Shown in pieces: positions 13,136 through 15,528 of a DNA stretch of 64,000 nt. A model generated the notes under the pieces. The model worked only from the letters and a program-made list of their open reading frames with translations, searched no databases and was not told where the DNA came from. Source of the DNA: Kitasatospora sp. NA04385. GTDB lineage: Bacteria; Actinomycetota; Actinomycetes; Streptomycetales; Streptomycetaceae. The stretch spans positions 6,765,728-6,829,727 of the forward strand of contig NZ_CP054919.1 in assembly GCF_013364235.1 (NCBI RefSeq), written 5' to 3'. Both the position numbers and the translations under genes were made by a program. Position 1 is the first letter of the stretch. The number at the start of each line of letters is the position of its first letter.

Positions 13136-13177
13136 GCGCCCCGGAACGCGGGAGCCTCCGGAGCGGGGAAAAGCAGG

Positions 13178-13206
13178 TGTCGGACGGGGTGCGCGCCGGT
13201 TAGGGT
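13178..13206 (+). promoter_or_regulatory. putative promoter of the Y RNA array
   Basis: TGTCGG (13178-13183) and TAGGGT (13201-13206) are separated by 17 bp. The expected start, 7-8 nt downstream of the -10, falls at 13213-13214, exactly the first base of the closing helix of the first Y-like RNA. No comparable promoter is evident before the second or third RNA, so all three may be cut from one transcript that continues into rsr. Confidence 0.55.
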
Positions 13207-13213
13207 GATCCTC

Positions 13214-13349
13214 GTCCAGGTGCGCAGGCGGGGGTTACTTCCTTTTGCGGAGTGTGTCGCGGGTTCGAGTCCCGTCACCGGCTTCGGGCCGGTGTAGCTC
13301 AGTTCGGTAGAGCAACTGTGTCACCCCCACCGCTTCTCGATCTCCGGAC
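13214..13349 (+). ncRNA. Y-like RNA A with permuted tRNA module
   Basis: The ends pair (13214-13219 with 13344-13349, one A-C mismatch). Inside are the 8-nt loop strand GUGCGCAG (13220-13227) and its partner ending GAUCU (13339-13343), then GC (13228-13229 with 13332-13333) and GGGGGU/ACCCCC (13230-13235 with 13323-13328) with an ACC bulge. The head is a tRNA read in permuted order: T-arm with loop UUCGAGU (13259-13275), 7-bp acceptor-like helix CACCGGC/GCCGGTG (13276-13294) closed by a UUCGG-type loop, U8-A9 (13295-13296), and a D-arm GCUC-AGUUCGGUA-GAGC (13297-13313) with the G18-G19 pair. This matches bacterial YrlA-type Y RNAs, which bind Rsr. No anticodon arm exists. Confidence 0.82.
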
Positions 13350-13371
13350 ACCCAACTTCACACGACTGCCA

Positions 13372-13440
13372 CCTCCCGGTGCGCAGGCGCCGGTTACTTC
13401 CTCTCAAGAAACCACCGGCACCGCTTTTGATCTCGGGAGG
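13372..13440 (+). ncRNA. minimal Y-like RNA B, no tRNA module
   Basis: It is only 69 nt long. A perfect 7-bp closing helix CCTCCCG/CGGGAGG (13372-13378 with 13434-13440) encloses the same GUGCGCAG strand (13379-13386) and the partner UUUUGAUCU (13425-13433). An inner helix GC plus GCCGGU/ACCGGC (13389-13394 with 13414-13419) follows, with the same ACC bulge. The head is just a 19-nt loop starting UACUUCC. Helix sequences differ from RNAs A and C while pairing is kept, which is compensatory support for the fold. It looks like the Rsr-binding half of a Y RNA alone. Confidence 0.75.
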
Positions 13441-13450
13441 CAGCCGCGCC

Positions 13451-13601
13451 GGGGCGTCCGGTGCGCAGGCGGGGGTTACTTCTTGGTGCGGGCATCGCCG
13501 GGTTCGAGTCCCGGACGGCCGCGCGTGCGCGCGCGGCCGGTGGCCCGGGTCCCCTCCGCCGAGGCGCGGGCCGCACCGGCCCGCGTGATCTCGGACGCCC
13601 C
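13451..13601 (+). ncRNA. Y-like RNA C with degenerate tRNA module and extra hairpin
   Basis: A perfect 10-bp closing helix GGGGCGTCCG/CGGACGCCCC (13451-13460 with 13592-13601) encloses GUGCGCAG (13461-13468), GC and GGGGGU. The head has a perfect T-arm (CCGGG-UUCGAGU-CCCGG, 13498-13514), then a 10-bp hairpin (13516-13525 with 13530-13539, loop UGCG) in the acceptor position, and a weak D-arm-like GGCCCGGGUCC. The 3' loop strand ends in the same GAUCU but is interrupted by an 8-bp hairpin (13565-13572 with 13578-13585). The RNA ends 36 nt before the rsr start codon, so it is either excised from, or folds in, the rsr leader. Confidence 0.75.
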
Positions 13602-13637
13602 GCGCCGCGGCGTGCCTCCCCGCAGGAGGACGTTCCC

Positions 13638-15263
13638 ATGGCCCGCTTCAACATCCGCCGCGCCGCCGCCCCGGCCGCCACCGGCCCGACCTCGCCCGTG
13701 ACCAGCACCGGGCGGACCGTCCGCAACCACAACGGCGGGACGGGCCACCTGCGCGACGAGAAGTCCGAACTCTTCCTGCTCACCGTCGCCAACCTGGTCG
13801 GCCAGGACGCCTTCTACGAGCGCGGCGGCGCCCGCGACGACCGCTACACCGCACTCGTCCGCGAACTCGCCGTCCGCGACCCCGAGTGGACGCTCGACCT
13901 GCTGCGCTGGCTGCGCTACGGCGCCGCGATGCGCACCGCCTCGCTGGTCGGCGCCGCCGAGTTCACCCGCGCCCGGCTCGACGCGAAGCTCCCCGGGCAC
14001 TCCCGCCAGGTGGTCGACGCGGTCCTCCAGCGTCCCGACGAGCCCGGCGAACTGCTCGCCTACTGGACGTCCCGGTACGGCCGCGCCCTGCCCAAGCCGC
14101 TCAAGCGCGGCGTCGCCGACGCCGCCGCCCGGCTGTACGACGCGCGCGCCCTGCTCAAGTACGACACCGCGAGCAAGGGCTACCGCTTCGGCGACGTCCT
14201 GGAGCTGACCCACCCGGCCCCGCACCGCGACAAGCCGTGGCAGGGCGAGCTGTTCCGCTACGCGCTGGCGCGCCGCCACCGCCCCGACGAGGCCGTCCCG
14301 CCCGCCGGGAACGCCGTGCTGACCGCCCACCGCGAGCTGGCGGACCTGCCCGTGGCCGAGCGCCGCGCGCTGGTCACCGGCCCGGGCGGCGCCGAACGCC
14401 TGGCCGCCGCCGGAATGACCTGGGAGGCGCTGGCCGGCTGGCTGCAGGGCCCGCTGGACGCCGCCGTCTGGGAGGCCGTCATCCCCTCGATGGGCCCGAT
14501 GGCGCTGGTGCGCAACCTGCGCAACTTCGACCGGGCCGGCGTCTCGGACGAGGCGGCCGAGGCCGTCGCCCGCCGGATCGCCGACCGCGGCGAGGTCAGG
14601 CGCTCGCGCCAGTTCCCGTTCCGCTACCTCGCCGCGCACCGGAACGTGCCCTCGCTGCGCTGGGGGCACGCGTTGGAGCAGGCGCTGCGGCACTCGCTGG
14701 AGAACGTGCCGGAACTGCCCGGGCGCACACTCGTCCTGGTCGACCGCTCCGGCTCGATGTTCGACCGGCCCAGCGCGCAGAGCGAGCTCAACCGGGCCGA
14801 CACCGCCGCGGTCTTCGGCACCGCGATCGCCCTGCGGTCCGCCGCCGCCGACCTGGTCGAATTCGGCACCGGCAGCCGGGAGATCGGCCTCCGGCCGGGT
14901 GACTCGCTGCTCAAGGCGGTCGACCGCTTCGGCAACCTCGGCGGCACCAACACCGCCGAGGCCGTCCGCGCCCACTACCGGGGCCACGACCGGGTGGTGA
15001 TCGTCACCGACGAACAGGCCTACGGCGACTTCCCGCACGATCCGCTGGAGTCCGTCCCCGCCCACGTCCCCTGCTACACCTGGAACCTGGCCGGCTACCG
15101 CACCGGCCACGCCCCCTCCGGCACCGGCAACCGCCACACCTTCGGCGGCCTGACCGACGCCGCGTTCCGCCTCGTCCCGCTGCTGGAGGCGGGGCAGGAC
15201 GCGGCCTGGCCGTGGGAGCGGGACCGGCGGAGTTCGAAGCGGCACCCGGAGGTCCGGCCCTGA
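13638..15263 (+). CDS. rsr: Ro60/TROVE-domain RNA-binding protein (Rsr)
   Basis: The product has 541 residues. The N-terminal TROVE/HEAT-like ring (about 30-360) shows GGTGHLRDEKSELFLLTVANLVGQD and RDPEWTLDLLRWLRYGAAMRTASL. The C-terminal von Willebrand A domain has a metal site: DRSGS near residue 368, then GGTNTAEAVRAH and VTDEQAYGD. In Deinococcus and Salmonella, Rsr binds Y RNA, which tethers it to exoribonuclease PNPase for structured-RNA decay. Direct linkage to three Y-like RNAs gives strong support. AGGAGGA lies 7 nt before the ATG. No RtcB ligase or RtcA cyclase gene is adjacent. The last 27 codons form copy 1 of a 129-bp tandem repeat, so the C-terminus is recent or unstable. Confidence 0.93.
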   Translation: MARFNIRRAAAPAATGPTSPVTSTGRTVRNHNGGTGHLRDEKSELFLLTVANLVGQDAFYERGGARDDRYTALVRELAVRDPEWTLDLLRWLRYGAAMRTASLVGAAEFTRARLDAKLPGHSRQVVDAVLQRPDEPGELLAYWTSRYGRALPKPLKRGVADAAARLYDARALLKYDTASKGYRFGDVLELTHPAPHRDKPWQGELFRYALARRHRPDEAVPPAGNAVLTAHRELADLPVAERRALVTGPGGAERLAAAGMTWEALAGWLQGPLDAAVWEAVIPSMGPMALVRNLRNFDRAGVSDEAAEAVARRIADRGEVRRSRQFPFRYLAAHRNVPSLRWGHALEQALRHSLENVPELPGRTLVLVDRSGSMFDRPSAQSELNRADTAAVFGTAIALRSAAADLVEFGTGSREIGLRPGDSLLKAVDRFGNLGGTNTAEAVRAHYRGHDRVVIVTDEQAYGDFPHDPLESVPAHVPCYTWNLAGYRTGHAPSGTGNRHTFGGLTDAAFRLVPLLEAGQDAAWPWERDRRSSKRHPEVRP

Positions 15264-15528
15264 CGGGTTCTCAGGTGGAGGAGAGCAGGAGCGGGAGGGG
15301 GAGGGGAGGGGCTGGAGGCGGGGCAGGACGCGGCCTGGCCGTGGGAGCGGGACCGGCGGAGTTCGAAGCGGCACCCGGAGGTCCGGCCCTGACGGGTTCT
15401 CAGGTGGAGGAGAGCAGGAGCGGGAGGGGGAGGGGAGGGGCTGGAGGCGGGGCAGGACGCGGCCTGGCCGTGGGAGCGGGACCGGCAGAGCTCGAAGCGG
15501 CACCCGAAGGTCCGGCCCTGACGGGTTC
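15182..15528. repeat. 129-bp tandem repeat, 2.7 copies, derived from the 3' end of rsr
   Basis: Copies start at 15182, 15311 and 15440. The first holds the last codons and stop of rsr; copies 1 and 2 are virtually identical; copy 3 is truncated and carries a few substitutions. The period is a multiple of three (43 codons), yet each copy has the stop, so the copies are untranslated tails. This explains most of the gap from 15264 to 15633. Confidence 0.9.

Follow-up and report, generated by a model that had tools for sequence, protein, structure and literature searches.

The question raised by this locus is what occupies the short interval in front of rsr, the gene for the Ro60 orthologue, in a Kitasatospora genome, and how a single Ro60 protein might use three RNAs. 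The DNA analysed, hereafter the window, is a stretch of 64,000 nucleotides corresponding to positions 6765728-6829727 of a single-contig genome of 8.4 Mb. Within it, rsr (13638-15263, forward strand, as are all features described here) encodes a protein with a TROVE domain (Pfam, E 1.4e-17) and a MIDAS-like DRSGS motif, and it is the sole TROVE match found in its own genome. A profile built from 21 Rsr proteins retrieved the structures of D. radiodurans Rsr (PDB 2nvo, 9.4e-11), Xenopus Ro60 (1yvp, 8.8e-10) and human RO60 (9nen, 4.3e-9). The closest named relatives of the protein are those of Kitasatospora phosalacinea (91%), and the gene is flanked by a malate synthase gene upstream and an amidohydrolase gene downstream. 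At its 3' end, a tandem repeat with a 129-bp unit (2.7 copies, 98% matches) spans 15182-15528, and beyond the stop codon the coding sequence for the final 26 Rsr residues occurs twice more.

Three adjacent units precede rsr in the order A (13214-13349), B (13372-13440) and C (13451-13601), the last of them separated from the gene by 36 nt. An earlier note on this DNA had described three adjacent Y-like RNAs just before a Ro60 orthologue, sharing an identical 8-nt strand, with closing helices that differ while their pairing is kept and a partner strand ending in GAUCU, and the units lie where that note had put them. GGTGCGCAGGCGNNGGTTACTTC is present three times in the window (13219, 13378 and 13460), always as an exact copy although up to three mismatches were allowed, and it was never seen in 100 dinucleotide shuffles of the window (expected count 0.00). 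The closing stems differ by unit with pairing kept (GUCC/GGAC, CCUCCCG/CGGGAGG and GGGGCGUCCG/CGGACGCCCC), and GAUCUC is found in the 3' strand of all three. The helices drawn in the earlier note were roughly right for the Ro-binding stem, but they lacked all three tRNA arms of A (T, acceptor and D), the T arm and acceptor-like hairpin of C and, also in C, a further hairpin inserted into the 3' strand. Its idea of different head modules on one common stem is borne out by the sequence and structure of the units, whereas it missed that these heads are pieces of a permuted tRNA. Judged by sequence comparison, the tandem trio is a real, conserved bacterial Y RNA array.

Unit A, as delineated from the Rfam YrlA model, model R2 and covariation, carries a permuted tRNA body with acceptor, T and D arms. 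The T arm (GCGGG-TTCGAGT-CCCGT, 13259-13275) was placed by sequence and alignment A1, the acceptor-stem hairpin (13276-13294) by compensatory changes in A1 columns 68-91, and the D arm (GCTC...GAGC, 13297-13313) by invariant pairs in A1 columns 94-110. A candidate anticodon-arm-like hairpin, CUUC-[CUUUUGC]-GGAG (13238-13252), assigned from its position and the pattern in relatives, is weak in the window genome, with four pairs, one of them G-U, and a 7-nt loop in which U33 is kept and A38 is lost. Unit B, recognised by model R3 and alignment A2, has a short head without T, D or acceptor arm; its putative anticodon-arm-like hairpin, UUC-[CUCUCAA]-GAA (13398-13410), follows the pattern of the short B heads of relatives, has three pairs only, and in the window is not predicted to be stable when folded alone. 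Unit C, delineated from weak model matches and alignment A3, bears a reduced tRNA head without D arm (13489-13547), in which, according to the MFE fold and to relatives, a stem CGGGC (13489-13493)/GCCCG (13543-13547) encloses a T arm (13498-13514) and an acceptor-like hairpin (13516-13539). An extra GC hairpin lies within the 3' strand of the Ro-binding stem of C (13564-13586, A3 columns 138-163); it is present in the 22 aligned Kitasatospora-type C units of A3, with both-side changes in two pairs, and absent from alignments A4 and A5. Folding of single sequences was discarded as evidence, since z-scores of -0.91, -1.37 and -1.81 are unconvincing in GC-rich DNA, and comparison was used instead.

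The Rfam YrlA model (RF02553), whose use the earlier note had proposed, aligns with the whole of unit A (45.4 bits, E 5.8e-9), although this lies below the gathering score of 69; at gathering there was no match anywhere in the window, and 0 of 10 related loci reached the threshold. Unit A, which has the permuted T, acceptor and D arms expected of YrlA, is on the strength of this match homologous to RF02553, though not filed as a member at gathering; the C unit of the window has only the T arm and an acceptor-like hairpin, and B has none of these arms. Model R2 was trained exclusively on C units from other genomes, with the window and all A units excluded, and finds unit A of the window at E 1e-19. 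Model R1, whose training set includes that unit, finds it at 1.5e-22 in the whole genome, the next matches being 5.2e-7 (confined to the tRNA-like portion of the model) and 6.2e-6 and below. Model R3, trained on a set that includes the window, gives unit B 75.5 bits (E 1e-14), and the Y strand of unit C is matched weakly by R2 (E 9.7e-4) and R3 (E 0.0048), both matches stopping short of its true 3' end.

YrlB is a Y RNA that lacks the tRNA-like domain, and unit B, in which the parser finds neither T nor D arm, resembles it in this respect; the comparison sets YrlB against B by description, not by sequence, and B differs in keeping an anticodon-arm-like hairpin in many relatives. In Salmonella, YrlB is the second Y RNA of the operon of YrlA (rsr-yrlBA-rtcBA), according to the section of PMC7790460 cited here. 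With YrlA, as represented in the Rfam alignment and in the relevant sections of PMC8394870 and PMC11472068, the array shares the position beside rsr, a long basal stem and circularly permuted acceptor, T and D arms, the order T arm, acceptor, D arm being the one described there. It differs in that the anticodon-arm-like hairpin of the Kitasatospora array is an insertion relative to the Rfam consensus, and in that the units stand in tandem with differently headed ones. The description in PMC8394870 cited here likens YrlA to D, T and acceptor arms, naming no anticodon arm, and reports tRNA-type modifications (DusA, TruB). The Deinococcus RYPER complex consists, in the account given in PMC4726728, of Rsr, a Y RNA made of stem and head, and PNPase; the locus studied here likewise combines a Ro60 orthologue with Y RNAs having a stem and a head, and differs in that at least three alternative RNAs would be available to one Rsr.

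The comparison was extended to 80 Streptomycetaceae rsr loci (one record is titled Saccharothrix sp.), 81 with the window, in which units were parsed by sequence pattern; the C units of L034, L061 and L081 were missed by the parser and added by eye. Unit content was A-B-C in 54 loci, B-C in 14, A-B in 7, B only in 2, A only in 1, A-C in 1 and none in 2, the loci left empty by the parser (L044 and L065) still showing a B-like 5' motif. The parser itself counted A in 63, B in 77 and C in 66 of the 81 loci, with consistent differences by position, and the order of the units and the outer stems characteristic of each are maintained throughout the family. In 72 of the 81 loci the parser recognised one or more units having a T arm as well as a D arm, the exceptions being L006, L012, L028, L034, L043, L044, L065, L066 and L081 (L034 and L081 hold a parser-missed C). 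Streptacidiphilus melanogenes has two rsr loci, L036 with A-B-C and L044 with only the B-like 5' motif. An array of three units in a streptomycete, which the earlier note had singled out as deserving study, is not exceptional: it is the content of 54 of the 81 family loci, and 2 to 5 units are found in two other families and in viral contigs.

Alignment A1 comprises 57 A units (55 distinct) and omits six of the 63 parsed ones (L004, L005, L006, L012, L021 and L061, with missing or different heads), so that its covariation describes intact A units. Standard pairs fill 99.0% of its 1977 pair cells, and 11 pairs covary, with 89 cells changed on both sides versus a shuffled mean of 30.1; when the structure is slid by 1 to 3 columns, only 0 to 6 such cells are left. 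Helices 1 and 2 vary with pairing kept, and in the Ro stem U8-A139 (49/55 rows) and C10-G138 (54/55) flank a bulged G9. The basal stem thus shows the end pairing, the single bulge and the opposite-strand bulge of a bacterial Y RNA. The stem of the A units, in which one bulged base is flanked by a U-A and a C-G pair, resembles the Ro60 site of vertebrate Y RNAs, outlined in PMC4726728 as a seven-pair helix with a single bulge and a three-base bulge opposite. In automatic consensus folds, double changes affect 13 of 38 pairs in class-I C units (Streptomyces, Streptacidiphilus), 9 of 37 in Kitasatospora-type C units and 4 of 16 in B, and only 3 of 31 in the 17 Leu-like C units, whose Ro stem the automatic fold missed. 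For these comparisons the 66 parsed C units were assigned manually to A3 (22), A4 (17) and A5 (24), leaving L014, L027 and L028 unused, and A2 contains 58 of the 77 B units, long-headed or truncated ones being omitted. Absence of covariation, the result set beforehand as refuting the fold, is excluded by these alignments, and the claim of compensatory variation is now supported by the A1 counts, the class-I and Kitasatospora-type C units covarying as well.

At the level of the genus, a B-type match was obtained in 54 of the 59 genomes with an Rsr match versus 2 of the 11 without (70 genomes, Fisher p 1.5e-6). Three of the five Rsr-positive, B-negative genomes (G028, G042 and G059) hold only fragments of rsr, which suggests joint decay of gene and RNA. 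In L050 and L079 unit B is a 31-32-nt stub of the lower stem, possibly a natural minimal Ro60-binding RNA.

In sequence and predicted fold, the heads imitate tRNA: A displays the acceptor, T and D arms in permuted order, B only a weak anticodon-arm-like hairpin and C an acceptor-T minihelix. Most A units present a further hairpin between the Y stem and the T arm, in which, within A1, a C-G pair becomes G-C in five sequences and an A-U pair becomes G-C in one; the first loop base is C in 53/55, the second U in 56/56, the following three are variable, and A occupies the final position in 53/57. This pattern was evaluated by an unbiased scan of T-arm heads from the 81 family loci, 17 of 20 far stretches and 38 of 40 viral loci, which yielded 222 heads, 164 of them eligible. 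Hairpins with a 7-nt loop were found in 124 (shuffled mean 39.6), and U33 and A38 occurred together in 93 (shuffled mean 1.8, maximum 7), position 36 being U in 67 of these 93. As related sequences enter these head counts independently, the comparison with shuffles exaggerates the significance, and the stronger argument is the variety of the closing stems, which include CCA/UGG, CGA/UCG, CUC/GAG, CCG/CGG, CCU/AGG, CGC/GCG and GCU/AGC. The unbiased figures are preferred to those of an earlier scan, biased towards the first stem found, in which 62 of 105 loops had the exact sequence of an anticodon loop found in one Streptomyces genome. Among 96 short B heads (22 of 118 were omitted as too long or unparsed), a 7-nt loop closed by three or more strict pairs occurs in 69 (shuffled mean 13.2, maximum 22), and in 40 of these 69 the loop contains both U33 and A38 (shuffled mean 0.8, maximum 4). 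All but two of the 51 distinct B hairpins have U33 (49 of 51); no such hairpin was found in 16 of 30 viral B heads.

The heads also vary in the tRNA that they resemble. C units with a tRNA-Leu-type D arm occur in 17 Streptomyces loci, 12 of them with an extended variable region, and the C unit of L039 has tRNA-Arg(ACG) as its clear best match (92 vs 64). Across the 222 heads, the common TAGCTC-type D arm accounts for 139, a Glu-type arm for 10 and a G(G/A)TGT-type arm for 7; the last, in the form seen in a unit of phage LuckySocke, recurs in the tRNA-Gln(ctg) genes of the window's own genome, and phage tRNA-Glu genes can look similar. Anticodon and body often disagree, a Glu-type body being combined with a GCU, GUC, UCC or GCA loop. 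The notion that each head was copied from one identifiable tRNA was rejected, since the best matches of A scatter and the LuckySocke head with a Gln-type D arm is unlike that phage's own tRNA-Gln. Two features are apparently new: many heads seem to carry an anticodon-arm-like hairpin (7-nt loop, U33, A38), so that nearly a whole tRNA would be copied, and different units seem to resemble different isotypes (Arg, Leu, Glu, Gln). In the literature searched, which did not extend to the primary papers on bacterial Y RNAs, the titles and the beginnings of abstracts report no streptomycete Y RNA arrays. The general-purpose tRNA finder ARAGORN called no tRNA in the window, eight in the 81 family upstream stretches (five on unit A) and, in viral loci, 18 that overlap Y units in 15 of 40 loci; these calls are independent support for tRNA-like heads.

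The reduced head of C is shared by the window, L003, L006 and L012, with CGGGC/GCCCG or UGGGC/GCCCA as closing stem. The closing pair is C-G in the window and L003 and U-A in L006 and L012, and because of this compensatory change the reduced head is best regarded as a kept minihelix. From its sequence, C in the window is an acceptor-T minihelix, a fuller tRNA body being the rule in most relatives. No D arm was parsed in the C units of the window, L003, L006, L012, L014, L027 and L028, neither T nor D arm in the A units of L004, L005, L006 and L012, and no A at all in 18 of the 81 loci. Since heads decay across loci, no single head seems indispensable. A strict alternation in the loss of A and C heads was discarded, since L006 and L012 lack the D arm in both units.

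A promoter-like element precedes unit A, with GGTGTC at the -35 position (13176-13181), a 19-nt spacer and a -10 box, TAGGGT (13201-13206), that ends 7 nt before the first G of the unit. Counted from the start of A, TANNNT occupies exactly positions -13 to -8 in 60 of 63 loci, whereas no fixed TANNNT precedes B or C (best position 7/77 and 2/66, respectively); the -35 part is weakly conserved, and most of the A-less loci printed keep a similar promoter-like box before B. The spacers are short (medians 17 and 14 nt, and 53 nt from the parsed end of C to the ATG). Because the conserved -10 box occurs before A only and the spacers are short, A, B, C and rsr are probably made as one transcript. 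Just upstream of the start codon, a hairpin, CCUCC-[CCGCA]-GGAGG (13615-13629), identified from the unpaired probability of the Shine-Dalgarno sequence (SD), covers the ribosome site of rsr. In 76 of 80 loci the SD has an unpaired probability under 0.3 (median 0.002; L044, without ATG, was omitted), against a median of 0.54 at 33 other ORF starts of the window, 27% of which fall under the same limit. For shuffled leaders the mean is 0.125, and in 31 of the 80 loci the natural leader ranks within the lowest tenth, so that the hairpin exceeds only in part what is expected of a shuffled C-rich leader. Since the covering stem varies in sequence between clades (CCUCC/GGAGG, CUCCUGC/GCAGGGG and CUCCGAA/UUCGGGG-type), selection on the hairpin is favoured, and it is likely a brake on rsr translation.

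Outside the family, 20 far stretches were chosen as strong array-like matches in a class-wide search, and their unit numbers therefore describe a non-random sample: merged matches gave one unit in 5, two in 6, three in 3, four in 4 and five in 2. An rsr match was present in 16 of the 20, and four (L213-L216) belong to the window's own family. All stretches with four or five units come from one other family (f17), the other multi-unit stretches from outside the window's own family come from f17 and f18, and f4, f14, f19 and f26 provide single units. A figure of 133 carriers among 296 class-wide genomes was not counted, as matches confined to model positions 27-106 or 27-64 have the appearance of tRNA genes or of adjacent tRNA genes. 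Matches were also found in 37 of 40 viral rsr loci, with one unit in 3, two in 20, three in 8, four in 5 and five in 1, weak and tRNA-only matches being left out of these counts. In L242, L247 and Arthrobacter phage Atuin, Y units lie downstream of rsr. Several viral rsr loci are within tRNA clusters, and most are outside large ones; in viral contig L244 (1528-2781), Y units and genuine tRNA genes (His, Asn, Ile, Arg) alternate in the region preceding rsr. All four phage records opened (LuckySocke, VanLee, Atuin and Kela) resemble the bacterial loci in having Y RNA model matches near the gene for a "Ro-like RNA binding protein". They differ in that rsr of Streptomyces phage LuckySocke and of Atuin sits in a tRNA cluster, and in that a Y RNA head is annotated as tRNA-Ser(gct) in LuckySocke (L259, 3684-3831) and as tRNA-Arg(tct) in Gordonia phage VanLee (L260, 3624-3763); in Kela an RNA ligase adjoins rsr. 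As curated Rfam thresholds miss the units tested and some phage annotations label them tRNAs, such RNAs are probably under-counted.

The sequence of the units, their covarying structure, the conserved order, the single conserved promoter box and the SD-covering hairpin, all of them directly observed, could be integrated in a model to which we give slightly better than an even chance: that one operon supplies alternative Ro60 RNPs, with heads made of different tRNA parts serving as adaptors or gates. In this model, a single promoter would drive the Y RNAs A, B and C and then rsr, and the co-transcribed array would be processed. Each RNA would be bound by Rsr through the same kind of Ro60-binding stem, so that one Rsr could be loaded with any of the three. 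The head, a near-complete permuted tRNA in A, the anticodon-arm-like hairpin only in B and the acceptor-T minihelix in C, would act as an adaptor or gate for proteins, presumably ones that bind tRNA or structured RNA. The analogy is with Deinococcus, where a single Y RNA tethers Rsr to PNPase, and precedents for tether, gate and tRNA mimicry are described in the cited portions of PMC8394870, PMC4726728 and PMC11472068; the "several guide or gate RNAs" of the earlier note would be plausible. Also in favour of the model are the joint occurrence of Rsr and B-type RNA in the genus, the arrays beside rsr in two other families and in viral contigs, and the consistent differences among parsed units according to their position. 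The model has to accommodate the decay of heads, with none of them indispensable, the scarcity of double changes in the 17 Leu-like C units, the weakness of the anticodon-arm-like hairpin in the window genome and the modest excess of the SD hairpin over shuffled C-rich leaders.

The same heads could instead be lures for enzymes that attack or modify tRNA, such as anticodon nucleases, tRNA-cleaving toxins or phage defences directed at host tRNA, with anticodon arms and a spread of isotypes covering several targets while stabilised on Ro60. The U33 and A38 hairpins in 93 of 164 eligible heads, the likeness to Arg(ACG) and Leu tRNAs and the Glu- and Gln-type D arms all fit such decoys, as does the position of rsr in tRNA clusters of LuckySocke, Atuin and several viral contigs and beside an RNA ligase in Kela. 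We nevertheless consider this unlikely, given that anticodon and tRNA body are often mismatched, that 139 of 222 heads have the common D arm and that most viral loci are outside large tRNA clusters; moreover, fragments of Salmonella YrlA were not detected in the results cited from PMC7790460, and this analysis identified no target nuclease. Still less probable is that tandem duplication merely left spare, decaying copies of which one matters. The head losses in several loci, the variation from 1 to 5 units, the B unit that could not be parsed in L040 and the stubs of L050 and L079 would agree with redundancy, but redundant copies would hardly keep their order and unit-specific outer stems across the family, the compensated closing stem of reduced C heads or the above-chance hairpin pattern of B heads.

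The location of the array between the sole conserved promoter box and rsr, together with an SD covered in nearly all loci, far more than at other ORF starts of the window, by stems that differ in sequence between clades, raises the option of a mainly cis-acting leader. Here Y elements and SD hairpin would control rsr through the binding of Rsr to its own 5' UTR, the free Y RNAs being by-products. We hold this to be improbable: a leader has no need for heads that copy tRNA arms, Y units lie downstream of rsr in L242, L247 and Atuin, and the SD hairpin fares only moderately against shuffled leaders. Finally, open frames do cross the region (e.g., 13252-13701, 149 aa), as expected in GC-rich DNA, and chance repeats or a coding region could be imagined in place of RNA genes; covariation contradicts this reading, and with the conserved promoter spacing and the co-occurrence with Rsr it leaves it a negligible probability.

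The preferred reading remains that of alternative Ro60 RNPs produced from one operon, and the array would represent a known kind of element, a Y RNA array, whose novelty appears to lie in several units carrying dissected tRNA parts. The array is a natural set of deletion mutants in which the function of the head can be compared unit by unit; the anticodon arms point to partners that would recognise the anticodon loop in addition to the elbow. A broader proposal, which we put forward only tentatively and regard as doubtful, is that actinobacterial and phage rsr operons make Ro60-bound arrays displaying dissected tRNA parts, among them anticodon arms and the bodies of several isotypes, as Ro60-stabilised tRNA decoys or substrates. 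If this were true, Ro60 would be a platform in the conflicts over tRNA among bacteria, toxins and phages.
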